A stretch of DNA of 64,000 nt from an uncultured Sulfolobales archaeon (GTDB lineage Archaea; Thermoproteota; Thermoprotei_A; Sulfolobales; NBVN01). Of this stretch, positions 32,317-61,532 are shown piece by piece. A program made the translations under genes and the position numbers. Positions within the stretch are counted from its first letter, which is position 1. Every line of letters starts with the position of its first letter. The stretch lies in assembly GCA_937949785.1 (NCBI GenBank), contig CALEDH010000001.1, positions 1 through 64,000 of the forward strand. The letters are read 5' to 3'. A model generated the notes under the pieces. That model was not told the origin of the DNA. It worked only from the letters and a program-made list of their open reading frames with translations, and ran no database searches.

Positions 32317-32326
32317 AGGTGGTACC

Positions 32327-33442
32327 ATAGGAAGATGCAGTCTATGTAGGAAGGAGTCCCCCACTATAAGTAATTCCATAGGTCTATGCTCTGACTGTTT
32401 AAGAAATCTTTCAGAACTGCCAACTAGAGTTCTCGAAGCTCATGGAAGGGCTCGGAAAGAACTTGGATTACAGGTAGCTAAGGTCGAGAACGGAGAATTT
32501 AGATGCAGTCTATGTGTTAACAGCTGCTACTTAAGCAGTGGGGCTGTAGGTTACTGCGGTAATTACACATACGAAAACAGCGTAAAACATGTGCTGAACT
32601 CACATGATTTATCTTACGGGTCTTGGTACTACGACCCCCACCCAACTAACTGCGTAGCCTTCCCAGTATGCCCGGCAGCCACCGGTAGAGGTTATCCTCA
32701 ATACGCGTTAAGTCCTAATGGTGAGAGAGGTTATTATAACCTTGCGGTATTCTATGCGGCATGCTCTCTAAACTGTCTGTACTGTCAGAACTGGGTTGGT
32801 AGGAAGGAATCCCTCCTACTTAAGCATAAAATGAGCGTAGATGAGTTGGTTAGAGCAGCTTTAAATGCTAACGTTACCTGCATCTGCTTCTTCGGAGGGG
32901 ATCCAACGCCGAACATCATCCACGCCTTAAGAACTTCAAGAGAGGTTCTTAAGAATATCCGCGAGGATAGAATTCTAAGGATTTGTTGGGAAACAAACGG
33001 TACTTTAAACCCGAAAATCATGCAAGAGGTTATCGATACTTCCCTAAAATCAGGCGGTATTATAAAAATAGACCTTAAAGCTTGGTCGCCTACGATATAC
33101 CATGCATTAACAGGTGTTAACGCTGTTAAGAGGGTTAAGGAGAATATCAAGTTGGTTTCTTCTTATATGGGCTTAAGGAAGGACCCCCCACTATTAGTAG
33201 TAAGTGTCTTACTAGTTCCGGGATATGTTGACCTTGTAGAGGTTAGAGGTATTGCAGAGTTCTTAGCATCCTTAAACACCGACATACCAGTTGTTCTACT
33301 ATCTTTCTACCCGCATTTCATGTTGAACGACCTACCACCTACTAGTAGAAAACATATGTATGAATCCGTACGTATTATGCGGGAGTTAGGGTTGAAAAAC
33401 GTATTTGTAGGTAATGAATGGTTATTAGGTGATTACTATTAA
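32327..33442 (+). CDS. Radical SAM protein with N-terminal zinc-ribbon-like domain
   Basis: About 371 residues. The SAM cluster motif CSLNCLYC (C146, C150, C153) is followed by FFGGDPTP, WETNG and KIDLKAW, typical of the activating-enzyme-like/AmrS branch. Upstream of the first standard start (GTG 32591) the same frame encodes CSLC...CSDC (residues 4-24) and CSLCVNSCYLSSGAVGYCG (60-78), clearly related to the Cys-rich lead of the AmrS gene at 12.4 kb. That frame has no ATG, GTG or TTG; ATA at 32327 follows GGTGGTACC. HerA's stop codon is ten bases before, so it is probably cotranscribed. Substrate unknown. Confidence 0.85.
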   Translation: MGRCSLCRKESPTISNSIGLCSDCLRNLSELPTRVLEAHGRARKELGLQVAKVENGEFRCSLCVNSCYLSSGAVGYCGNYTYENSVKHVLNSHDLSYGSWYYDPHPTNCVAFPVCPAATGRGYPQYALSPNGERGYYNLAVFYAACSLNCLYCQNWVGRKESLLLKHKMSVDELVRAALNANVTCICFFGGDPTPNIIHALRTSREVLKNIREDRILRICWETNGTLNPKIMQEVIDTSLKSGGIIKIDLKAWSPTIYHALTGVNAVKRVKENIKLVSSYMGLRKDPPLLVVSVLLVPGYVDLVEVRGIAEFLASLNTDIPVVLLSFYPHFMLNDLPPTSRKHMYESVRIMRELGLKNVFVGNEWLLGDYY

Positions 33443-41474: not shown

Positions 41475-42080
41475 ATGGCGTATAGGGAGATAGGAACTGG
41501 CGCTACTGCAGTAGGCATAAAAGTTAGTGATGGTGTTGTCTTAGCAGCTGAGAAGAGAGTAGCGTATGGTAGCTACGTACTGAGTAGAGTTGGTAAGAAG
41601 GTTTTTATTATTAAGAATAGGTTTGGGTTAGCATGTGCTGGTTTGTTTGCAGACATCCAAACCCTAGGTAGGCTGATGGGTGTTGAGATACATAGGTATG
41701 AGTTAGAGGCGTCTAGGACTATGAATGTTAGGACAGCAGCTAAGTTACTCTCCTTCATACTCTATCAGTATAAGTACATGCCCTTCCTCTCTGAAATAAT
41801 CTTCGGCGGTATTGATAATGAGGGGCCCCATATTTTCATCATGGATCCCTTAGGCTCACTTATAGAGGATGACTACGCTGCCGTAGGTACTGGTGCACCA
41901 ATAGCTATTGGCGTCATAGAAAGTGAGTATAGGAGTGGACTAAGCTTAGAGACTGCTGAGAGCCTAGCTGTTAAGGCCGTTAAAGCTGCTATCTCTAGGG
42001 ATGCAGTATCGGGTGATGGCGTAGACATCGCGGTTATAGGTATGGGTAAGTCCTACGAGAAGTTCTACCAGGTAGTTTAA
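41475..42080 (+). CDS. psmB: Proteasome beta subunit, PsmB1 type, lacking the catalytic threonine
   Basis: A 201-residue 20S proteasome beta subunit: [43 protein letters not shown] and [11 protein letters not shown]. Active subunits are cut before a TTTVG motif to expose Thr1. Here the region reads GATAVGIKV, so the Thr1 position is Ala. This matches the Sulfolobus PsmB1 subunit (PATAIGLKV), which assembles with an active PsmB2 to tune the ring. It is the first gene of a plus-strand run with endonuclease V, RibK, a zinc-ribbon protein and signal peptidase. ATG start after GGTAGTAG. Confidence 0.92.
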
Positions 42081-42715
42081 TTACGACGAAGTACTTTAGC
42101 GCTGAAAGGGCTAAGGAATCACAGAAATTATTAGCTAGGAAAGTAGATAGAAGCCATGTAGTAAGGAATATTAGCAACGTAGTTGGGTTGGATATCTCAT
42201 ATTCGAAAGACGTCGGGGTCGCTGTAGCTGTCTTCATGGACTTCCCTCAATTAAACCTTAAAGAATATGCTGTTGTAAAGGGGGTCGTAGAGGTACCTTA
42301 CATACCTGGTTTATTAGCATTCAGGGAAGCACCGCTGATGATTAAAGCGTACAGAAAGCTTAACCGTGAAGCAGACTTAATAGTTGTTGACGGCCATGGC
42401 GTAACACACCCCAGAGAATTCGGTATAGCTTCACATGTAGGGCTGATATTAGATAGACCGACCGTAGGAGTGGCTAAGAACCTACTCTACGGCACCATCG
42501 TAAAAAGTTCTGACTCAACGGAATACATAGTAGTCAACAATAACGTAGGTGGTGTGGTTTACAGACACTTAAATAAGGAGTTATACGTCTCTATAGGACA
42601 TAAGGTATCTATAAACTCCTTAAAAGAGGTCGTACCATACCTATTTAAATCTCATTACTTGCCAGAACCTACTTATATAGCTGACATGCTATCTAAGAAG
42701 TTTAGGAGGTCATAA
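42080..42715 (+). CDS. nfi: Endonuclease V
   Basis: About 211 residues, the usual length. GLDISYSKD (D38) is the first catalytic strand, VEVPYIPGLLAFREAP the substrate-strand wedge, and VDGHGVTHPREFGIASHVG the second catalytic segment. It cleaves DNA or RNA near deoxyinosine/inosine. The first standard start (TTG 42188) would fall one codon before D38 and remove the helical lead AERAKESQKLLARKV that homologues have. The frame runs open upstream to ATT at 42080, which overlaps the psmB stop codon (TAATT) and follows AGGTAG. No ATG, GTG or TTG lies between. Confidence 0.88.
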   Translation: MTTKYFSAERAKESQKLLARKVDRSHVVRNISNVVGLDISYSKDVGVAVAVFMDFPQLNLKEYAVVKGVVEVPYIPGLLAFREAPLMIKAYRKLNREADLIVVDGHGVTHPREFGIASHVGLILDRPTVGVAKNLLYGTIVKSSDSTEYIVVNNNVGGVVYRHLNKELYVSIGHKVSINSLKEVVPYLFKSHYLPEPTYIADMLSKKFRRS

Positions 42716-56023: not shown

Positions 56024-56710
56024 TTAACATATTTCCGCATCATCTATAATTAGATACCCAACCCAGTGATTAGGGTACCAGACCTTCCTACTAGATTTTA
56101 TGCATACCTTCCCCCCACGGAAGAGAGGTGAGGAAGTAACAAATGTTTCGAACTCCCCTCCCTCACCGACGGGATTGACGCCGTACTTCCTAGCTATATG
56201 TAGGAAGTCTTCTAAATTACTTAAATCTATTCTACTGCCTAACCACTTAACGTTTAATCCATATGCTTGTAACGCAGTAATTATGAACTCCATAGTTTTA
56301 ACCTCCTCATGTAGTAGTAGGTATGGGTCGTAGCCCCACAAAGGCGTTAAATGTATTAGGCCTAACTCGCTACACAGTCTATCTAAAACCGATCTCTGAT
56401 AATTAGATACTACGACACCGCTGACTACGTATTTAAACCCATAGCCCCGGAGTTCTCCGAGCTTCCTCCTCAACTCACCTACTTCAACGTTCTTAATACC
56501 ACTACAACGCATTAAATCGTAGCTAATGCCCAATAAGTTACTGTGTAAGGCGCACCAGTTAATGTTTACAGTGTGGAATAGCCAGGAATCAGCTATCAGT
56601 GGGCTGGCTACTAATAATTTTTCTACGTTATAACCTAGGCTTAGTGCCTTAATTAATGCGTAGTGTGAGTCCTTCCCACCACTATATAAGACTAAAGTTT
56701 TCTCAACTAC
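56024..56710 (-). CDS. dph6: Diphthine-ammonia ligase Dph6
   Basis: About 229 residues, the normal size. The PP-loop SGGKDS (10-15) binds ATP; LWGYDP (about 130) and GEGGEFETFVTSSPLF (about 190-205) are the family signature. It amidates diphthine on aEF-2 as the last step of diphthamide synthesis. The first standard start (TTG 56533) would delete the PP-loop and 59 residues. Upstream the frame is open but has no ATG, GTG or TTG before a TGA. GAGGGGTG lies seven bases before GTA (56710), the best placed codon. It overlaps the DUF4443 gene by four bases. Confidence 0.88.
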   Translation of the reverse strand, partial: VVEKTLVLYSGGKDSHYALIKALSLGYNVEKLLVASPLIADSWLFHTVNINWCALHSNLLGISYDLMRCSGIKNVEVGELRRKLGELRGYGFKYVVSGVVVSNYQRSVLDRLCSELGLIHLTPLWGYDPYLLLHEEVKTMEFIITALQAYGLNVKWLGSRIDLSNLEDFLHIARKYGVNPVGEGGEFETFVTSSPLFRGGKVCIKSSRKVWYPNHWVGYLIIDDAEIC

Positions 56711-57375
56711 TGCGTAGCACCCCTCAAAACATCTAAAGCAGCTTCAACTACGTACATTAAACAGTTCCTATCCCCCTTCCTGCAAACAGAAACTAAAACA
56801 CTGTCCCCTTCAAAGATCTTGAAACCCCCTAAGATATCCCTCCAAAATCCCTGGTCGATAACTTTATATAAGCCATAAGAGTTAGGTAGCATAAATACCC
56901 CATCAACGTAGTAAAGTATTAAACCACCAGTACCCCCCTTCCTAACTATTAAGTCTCTTACGTATAGTACACCGCCGACCTGACTCACAAGCCTAACACC
57001 GTCTCTAAGTAGGACTGCTGACATCCTACAATCCCTACATATTTCCCCATAACCTAGGTCAAAACTACCAGCTACGATTAACCTGCTCATTAATAACCTA
57101 AGAACTTCAAAACCTGCCTCGGTTAATAACACACCGGCCACAGGGTCGACAGCTATTAATCCAACCTCAGATAGCCTCCTAACCAAGGTTCTCACACTGC
57201 CCTCACCAATTCCTAAGACGTTAGAGAGTGCTTTCCTTCCTGAGGGACTTTTAGCGCACTCATTTAAAGTTAAGTATATGTGGTAGCTAGTAAAGCCTGG
57301 TCTAACATTACCTTTAGGTAGTGTTACCTTATCAAAGATGTTAAAGACCTCCCCTAGATCCATGAGTTTCCTCAC
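56707..57375 (-). CDS. DUF4443-like winged-helix protein
   Basis: A 222-residue protein. Residues about 25-90 form a winged helix-turn-helix (SYHIYLTLNECAKSPSGRKAL, then GIGEGSVRTLVRRLSEVGL). A second alpha/beta domain (about 100-215) includes CRDCRMSAVLLR. The combination fits DUF4443 archaeal proteins of unknown role. ATG start. It is coupled to dph6 downstream; whether it regulates or assists diphthamide synthesis is open. Confidence 0.72.
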   Translation of the reverse strand: MRKLMDLGEVFNIFDKVTLPKGNVRPGFTSYHIYLTLNECAKSPSGRKALSNVLGIGEGSVRTLVRRLSEVGLIAVDPVAGVLLTEAGFEVLRLLMSRLIVAGSFDLGYGEICRDCRMSAVLLRDGVRLVSQVGGVLYVRDLIVRKGGTGGLILYYVDGVFMLPNSYGLYKVIDQGFWRDILGGFKIFEGDSVLVSVCRKGDRNCLMYVVEAALDVLRGATQ

Positions 57376-60830: not shown

Positions 60831-61532
60831 CTACTCCTCAAACTCCTCAAGCCTTTCAACCTTATATTCTACACCGACCCTCCTCTTAACTAGTTCTATA
60901 ATCTTAACCGCGTCGGAGAAGCTCACATACCTAGCATTTGATGTGAACTTACTAATATTCTGACTGAGAGCTTCCTCAATGCTTAAACCATCACAATCTA
61001 TTCTCAACTTCTCAACAACCATAGGTGTTGGTTCTAATGCTGCTCCTTTTTTCACGAAGACTAACTCATTATTTACTGGGGTTACTATGAAAGCCCCTAC
61101 ATCCCTATCACCTAACTTCATGATATACACTAAGTCACCGTCTTCTGTCTCACCTAACAAGTTAATACTATATGCTACTACTGCTTCCATAATACTTTTT
61201 ACATTCATCCTTACCTTATTTAACACCTCAGCAACCTCATCCTCAGATAACCTTCTAAACGCCTCAATTTTCAATGTATCAAACATCCATTCAATATTAC
61301 CCTCCTTTACCTCGTAGTCTACTGATACCCTCACAACATCTCCTTTACCTAACCTCAATTCATCTACGAAAATCCTATACAACACTTTATTTAGCTGTGC
61401 TACTTGAAATGCCACATTAGCACTCCTCACACTACCTTCCTTAATAAGGTCCCGTAGCTGGGCAAACGCCACTCTCCTAACCTTATCAGCGTATGCTCCT
61501 ACTATTATATAACCTGACCTTAAAGTTGCCAG
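60831..61532 (-). CDS. DUF2258 family protein
   Basis: About 233 residues. The family's opening TLRSGYIIVGAYADKVRR lies upstream of the only standard start codon in frame (GTG near 61472), so translation must begin earlier. CTG at 61532 follows AGGTGAT by three bases and begins exactly where DUF2258 proteins begin. The rest (FAQLRDLIKEG, GDVVRVSVDYEV, NNELVFVKKGAALEPTP) is complete. DUF2258 occurs in crenarchaea; its function is unknown. It converges with the amidohydrolase-like gene, two bases apart. Confidence 0.82.
   Translation of the reverse strand: MATLRSGYIIVGAYADKVRRVAFAQLRDLIKEGSVRSANVAFQVAQLNKVLYRIFVDELRLGKGDVVRVSVDYEVKEGNIEWMFDTLKIEAFRRLSEDEVAEVLNKVRMNVKSIMEAVVAYSINLLGETEDGDLVYIMKLGDRDVGAFIVTPVNNELVFVKKGAALEPTPMVVEKLRIDCDGLSIEEALSQNISKFTSNARYVSFSDAVKIIELVKRRVGVEYKVERLEEFEE

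Follow-up and report, generated by a model that had tools for sequence, protein, structure and literature searches.

In this uncultured Sulfolobales archaeon, no ATG, GTG or TTG of the dph6 gene (diphthine--ammonia ligase) could serve as the start of a functional protein. In all likelihood, as judged from the sequence comparisons below, it starts at a GTA at 56710, on which a CAU initiator tRNA positioned by a Shine-Dalgarno (SD) sequence would act as on a near-cognate codon, with reinitiation probably aiding. Near-cognate starts appear to occur genome-wide and not to be confined to dph6: dozens of ordinary genes in two sister genomes seem to have them, and among 929 orthologues we count about 25 as a minimum. 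The window analysed is a 64,000-nt stretch of the genome, to which bare coordinates refer.

The dph6 frame is open on the minus strand from 56743 to 56024 (239 aa, without internal stop), and the proposed coding sequence spans 56024..56710. Its product is an archaeal Dph6, with 218.4 bits against the TIGR03679 equivalog (curated cut-off 197.3), a PF01902 match and the PDB relatives 3rjz and 2d13; it shares family, PP-loop and full length with these proteins, and only the start codon differs. The PP-loop SGGKDS (56666..56683, minus strand) is encoded in frame by AGT-GGT-GGG-AAG-GAC-TCA, and GGKDS is invariant in the Dph6 alignment. When the minus strand is read from the bounding TGA to this loop (TGA AGC TGC TTT AGA TGT TTT GAG GGG TGC TAC GCA GTA GTT GAG AAA ACT TTA GTC TTA TAT, then the loop codons), not one ATG, GTG or TTG is encountered. 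The first standard codon of the frame, TTG 56531..56533 (codon 70), lies past the loop, which its use would delete. The original prediction, that no standard codon can yield a PP-loop-containing Dph6, is thus borne out, and so is its reading of GTA 56710-56708 as the candidate start, preceded at 7 nt by the putative ribosome-binding site GAGGGGTG (56718..56725, minus strand). Seventy codons without a standard start would be expected by chance in about 1% of cases if 6% of codons were ATG, GTG or TTG, a rough estimate that makes the stretch only mildly unusual by itself; what takes it beyond chance is its conservation at the protein level, together with the lack of a standard start at this place in two further genomes. 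No RNA family was found in the dph6 region.

A protein search found a dph6 homologue in 59 of 60 related genomes, and its neighbourhood was examined in 30. The named relatives, all metagenome-assembled drafts, are Sulfolobales archaeon SKYB66 (G001, same genus as the window's genome, G000), Desulfurococcaceae Bin S28 (G004, a sister or related genus), Desulfurococcales KUA_Bin17 (G006, a related genus) and Zestosphaera tikiterensis (G002, a family member). At the aligned position, nine codons before the PP-loop, the codon is GTA in G000, ATA in G001, ATT in G004 and ATG in G006, and in 26 further relatives dph6 has ATG, GTG or TTG at -7 to -10 from the loop. The distance from GGTG to the start is exactly 7 nt in the three genomes with a non-standard codon (GGGGTG-CTACGCA-GTA, GAGGTG-CTGCGAC-ATA and AAGGTG-GTAAGTA-ATT, in the above order). 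In G004 an in-frame TAA stands one codon before the ATT (TAA GTA ATT), so that the dph6 start is confined there to a few codons. The first standard codon of the frame falls at different places in G001 and G004, and TTG 56533 is not conserved. The first 60 codons, which initiation at this TTG would lose, are under purifying selection, as judged from pN of 0.14-0.19 and pS of 0.66-0.88 within G000, G001 and G004 (0.14 and 0.66 between G000 and G001). Furthermore, the Dph2 family of the diphthamide pathway (PF01866) was found in G000, G001, G004 and G006. The conserved position, the presence of Dph2 and the low pN/pS together argue that dph6 is a real, selected gene that lacks a standard start in a clade.

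These data also bear on the idea that an assembly error, or decay of the gene, removed a normal start by a base change or indel. The relatives are drafts, as is the window's genome (29 contigs, 1.385 Mb, 87% complete). However, three assemblies carry three different non-standard codons in one column with identical SD spacing, the full-length frame has no internal stop, and purifying selection is strong, N-terminus included, which leaves this explanation very improbable. The two outcomes that the original prediction had named as fatal to it did not materialize: a single PF01902 copy was found in the genome, with no second intact dph6 beside which this one would be a pseudogene, and a sequencing error cannot account for the absence of a standard start in the independent assemblies G001 and G004 as well.

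Is the dph6 start an isolated oddity? We compared all stop-to-stop frames of 1.15 Mb of G000 with those of 1.16 Mb of G001, both drafts, which gave 929 reciprocal orthologues, and tallied every aligned column at a distance of 5-7 nt from an upstream GGTG that the two genomes share, a procedure that avoids choosing codons by eye. No 16S 3' end could be located in the assemblies, so the anti-SD was taken to be the archaeal consensus. The tally comprised 177 standard/standard, 22 standard/near-cognate and 8 standard/other columns; at the wrong spacings of 8-10 and 2-4 nt only 1 and 5 standard/near-cognate pairs, respectively, were counted. We then kept only columns without a further standard codon close by, disregarding any that overlap the SD, which gave a strict set of 32 genes. 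There, 33 of the 51 non-standard codons were CTG, ATA, ATT, ACG or ATC, and four more were GTA. The same class made up 5/37, 2/36 and 3/28 of codons at 8-10, 2-4 and 11-13 nt, that is, 10/101 at wrong spacings against 33/51 at 5-7 nt (P=4e-12). AAG and AGG, the remaining one-mismatch codons, did not occur in the strict set. GTA, with two mismatches to AUG, accounts for 4 of the 37 near-cognate cases and is rarer than ATA, ATT, CTG or ACG, a point against the proposed dph6 start. The background of the method is visible in 7 of the 32 strict columns, which hold codons that are not near-cognate (GAT, GAA, GCA, TCT and others); the 25 of 929 genes left after their removal are a lower bound, as genes with no conserved GGTG or with a longer spacing go uncounted.

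We also read the pairs whose conserved protein begins ahead of any standard codon. Among them, with names assigned in this list by sequence inspection and not by family search, are clear cases that are non-standard in both species (G000/G001): RIO1 kinase GTA/ATA, Lrp-like ATT/ATA, Ncs6-like ATA/ATA, POR gamma ATT/ATT, RecA-like ATT/ATC and an HTH protein ACG/ACG. Others cleanly swap codon class between the two at equal or nearly equal SD spacing, namely a radical SAM protein (ATA/GTG), a PorD-like protein (CTG/ATG), a ThermoDBP-related protein (CTG/ATG), and phosphomannomutase-like (GTG/ACG), RpoL-like (GTG/ACG) and PDCD5-like (ATG/ATT) genes. Two of these lie in the window with equal column and spacing in G001: the radical SAM gene (32327..33442, plus strand), with ATA at 32327-32329 behind GGTG 32318-32321, and the ThermoDBP-related gene (60831..61532, minus strand), with CTG at 61532-61530 behind GGTG 61541-61538. 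In the endonuclease V gene (42080..42715, plus strand) there is no standard start 5' of the conserved N-terminus; the SD is weak and the start uncertain, either ATT 42080 or ACG 42083, with ACG at the aligned column in G001. Several other apparent cases were dropped as antisense or spurious frames, or because an ATG further down was shared. A threonine-synthase-like gene (G000 C8:224555-225772, minus strand) likewise has no standard start before its conserved N-terminus in G000, where the first standard codon comes only after 89 residues (after 24 in G001). Nor does a near-cognate codon stand at a workable distance from the SD: the two species have CAT/TAT at that distance, and TTA/TTA further in.

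How could ribosomes reach the GTA of dph6? Just upstream lies a co-directional gene (56707..57375, minus strand), a 224-aa frame with a PH0730-like HTH N-domain and a weak DUF4443 match, conserved in G000, G001 and G004. Its stop, TAG 56709-56707, overlaps GTA 56710-56708 in the 4-nt unit GTAG, and the dph6 overlap reads GTAG or ATAG. The RIO1-type kinase gene (G000 C5:1016-1849, minus strand) has the same arrangement: its start, GTA in G000 and ATA in G001 at the same 7-nt spacing, shares a 4-nt overlap (GTAA/ATAA) with the stop of the preceding frame, aIF1A. Both resemble the coupling described at NTGA overlaps (PMC10666635) in being 4-nt stop/start overlaps of co-directional genes, and differ from it in that the overlap is NTAG or NTAA, so that the start cannot be an NTG codon. 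If the TGA of a canonical NTGA overlap mutated to TAR, the start would change from NTG to NTA, and this is a plausible origin of the dph6 and RIO1 kinase starts.

Termination-reinitiation at 4-nt overlaps is established in archaea (PMC10666635), and in its pure form it would let ribosomes restart at any codon overlapping the stop (NTAG), codon identity hardly mattering and only overlapping pairs being concerned. The dph6 and RIO1 overlaps fit this proposal. However, for 29 of the 37 strict near-cognate starts no long upstream frame terminates between -10 and +8 nt of the start, so that coupling is at most an aid, and the codons used remain limited to near-cognates, AAG and AGG being absent; we regard it as a rather unlikely full account. 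We can also ask whether a programmed frameshift fuses the upstream regulator with Dph6, an idea suggested by the overlap of the two frames and by the conservation of the upstream gene. Here, the open windows shared by the two frames are only about 33, 15 and 6 nt long and contain no common slippery heptamer on inspection, the Dph6 of G006 has its own ATG, and most of the other near-cognate genes are not abutted by a gene upstream, so that a frameshift is scarcely credible. We favor SD-positioned initiation at the GTA itself: the GGTG 7 nt upstream would position the 30S subunit, the CAU initiator tRNA would pair imperfectly with GTA, which would be decoded as a start with methionine presumably inserted, and termination of the overlapping upstream gene would probably deliver ribosomes to the site. 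More generally, we infer that the lineage tolerates near-cognate starts since SD positioning outweighs codon pairing.

A changed initiator tRNA, in its anticodon or through a weakened anticodon stem, might instead make AUA- or GUA-type codons cognate starts, and recognition of AUA has been suggested for an initiator with a 4-bp stem (PMC13092985). The initiator genes, located by their 5' half, have the anticodon CAT in G000, G001, G004, G006, G002, G003, G017 and G022 (loci: G000 C3:64224, plus strand; G001 C44:3558, minus strand; L186, L189 and L194); in G017 and G022 only the 5' half was seen (split tRNA). Three introns interrupt the gene in G000, G001, G004 and G006; two adjoin the anticodon and the third lies in the T loop. 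With candidate exon boundaries, the 3' exon reads ATCCCGAGG in G000, G001 and G006 and ACCCCGAGG in the others, a substitution that perhaps alters pair 31:39 of the initiator. Introns adjoining the anticodon and this exon variant speak for a changed initiator. On the other hand, CAU is the anticodon in every initiator gene read, which led us to reject an altered anticodon as the cause; G004 retains ACCCCGAGG, yet its dph6 appears to start at ATT; and wobble to A at the third position does not account for ACG, CTG or ATT. Taken as a whole, a changed initiator seems improbable. Sulfolobus aIF1 is reported to favor discrimination against non-canonical starts (PMC6237735). Both aIF1 and aIF1A are present here, the basic loop of aIF1 is intact and the alignment has no clear lesion, so that loss of a fidelity factor was rejected as well. 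Neither a changed anticodon nor a lost fidelity factor thus explains the pattern.

Near-cognate starts may reach beyond the genus. In 20-kb loci, 3 standard/near-cognate pairs were found in 61 orthologues between G000 and G001, G004 or G006, a small sample, and none in the roughly 150-200 orthologues of other genome pairs that served as a small control. Counts of GAGGTGA N3-5 ATH in 60 genomes are in excess in G000, G001, G004 and G006, but also in G003, G012 and G043, and so do not set the clade apart. Likely ATA starts were noted in G006 for a UbiX-like (L217:1352, plus strand) and an rpS11-like gene (L217:13575, plus strand), in Zestosphaera for a CDC48-like ATPase (L220:12737, plus strand) and in G027 (L228:2364, plus strand). 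A Zestosphaera-related thermophilic clade could have truly relaxed P-site decoding, with AUA, AUU, AUC, ACG, CUG and GUA as routine, interchangeable starts when GGTG lies 5-7 nt upstream, owing to changes in the initiator tRNA, the initiation factors or the ribosome; we advance this tentatively, with somewhat more doubt than belief.

In E. coli, infC and pcnB start at AUU. The starts described here are like such E. coli cases in the codons one mismatch from AUG, the CAU initiator tRNA and the SD sequence, but they are unlike these isolated cases in their number, in affecting housekeeping genes and in swapping with ATG, GTG or TTG between sister species. Initiation from all codons was measured by Hecht et al. 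2017, as cited in PMC10666635, and ATT is quoted at about 0.3% of the efficiency of ATG in E. coli. Belinky et al. 2017 (PMC5622118) compared, as we did, orthologous start codons between close relatives, and in 36 prokaryote triplets found 2 changes to CUG and 1 to AUU among 61,358 ancestral AUG starts. In contrast, our strict set holds 13 standard/near-cognate pairs beside 174 standard/standard SD-anchored columns, a comparison to be read knowing that the annotations used there rarely call such starts and that divergence differs. A literature search, made mostly without subscription papers and thus weak evidence of novelty, did not turn up any account of near-cognate starts on a genome scale in archaea.

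If our reading is right, start-codon identity would be a soft constraint in these archaea, SD position doing the work, and standard gene finders would annotate genes throughout the lineage too short or from a wrong start. The natural ATG/near-cognate swaps would then allow direct comparison, and provide natural material for studying what sets the stringency of archaeal start codons. We noticed that GTA is also the apparent start of an aRF1-like gene (G000 C9:88840-89934, minus strand) in the two species, with GGTG 4 nt upstream and standard codons coming only 11-15 residues later. We also observed that the GTG inside the GGTG is often in frame three codons before the near-cognate start (for example at G000 C7:25550, C9:325 and C18:13357), so that gene callers would place the start within the ribosome-binding site itself.
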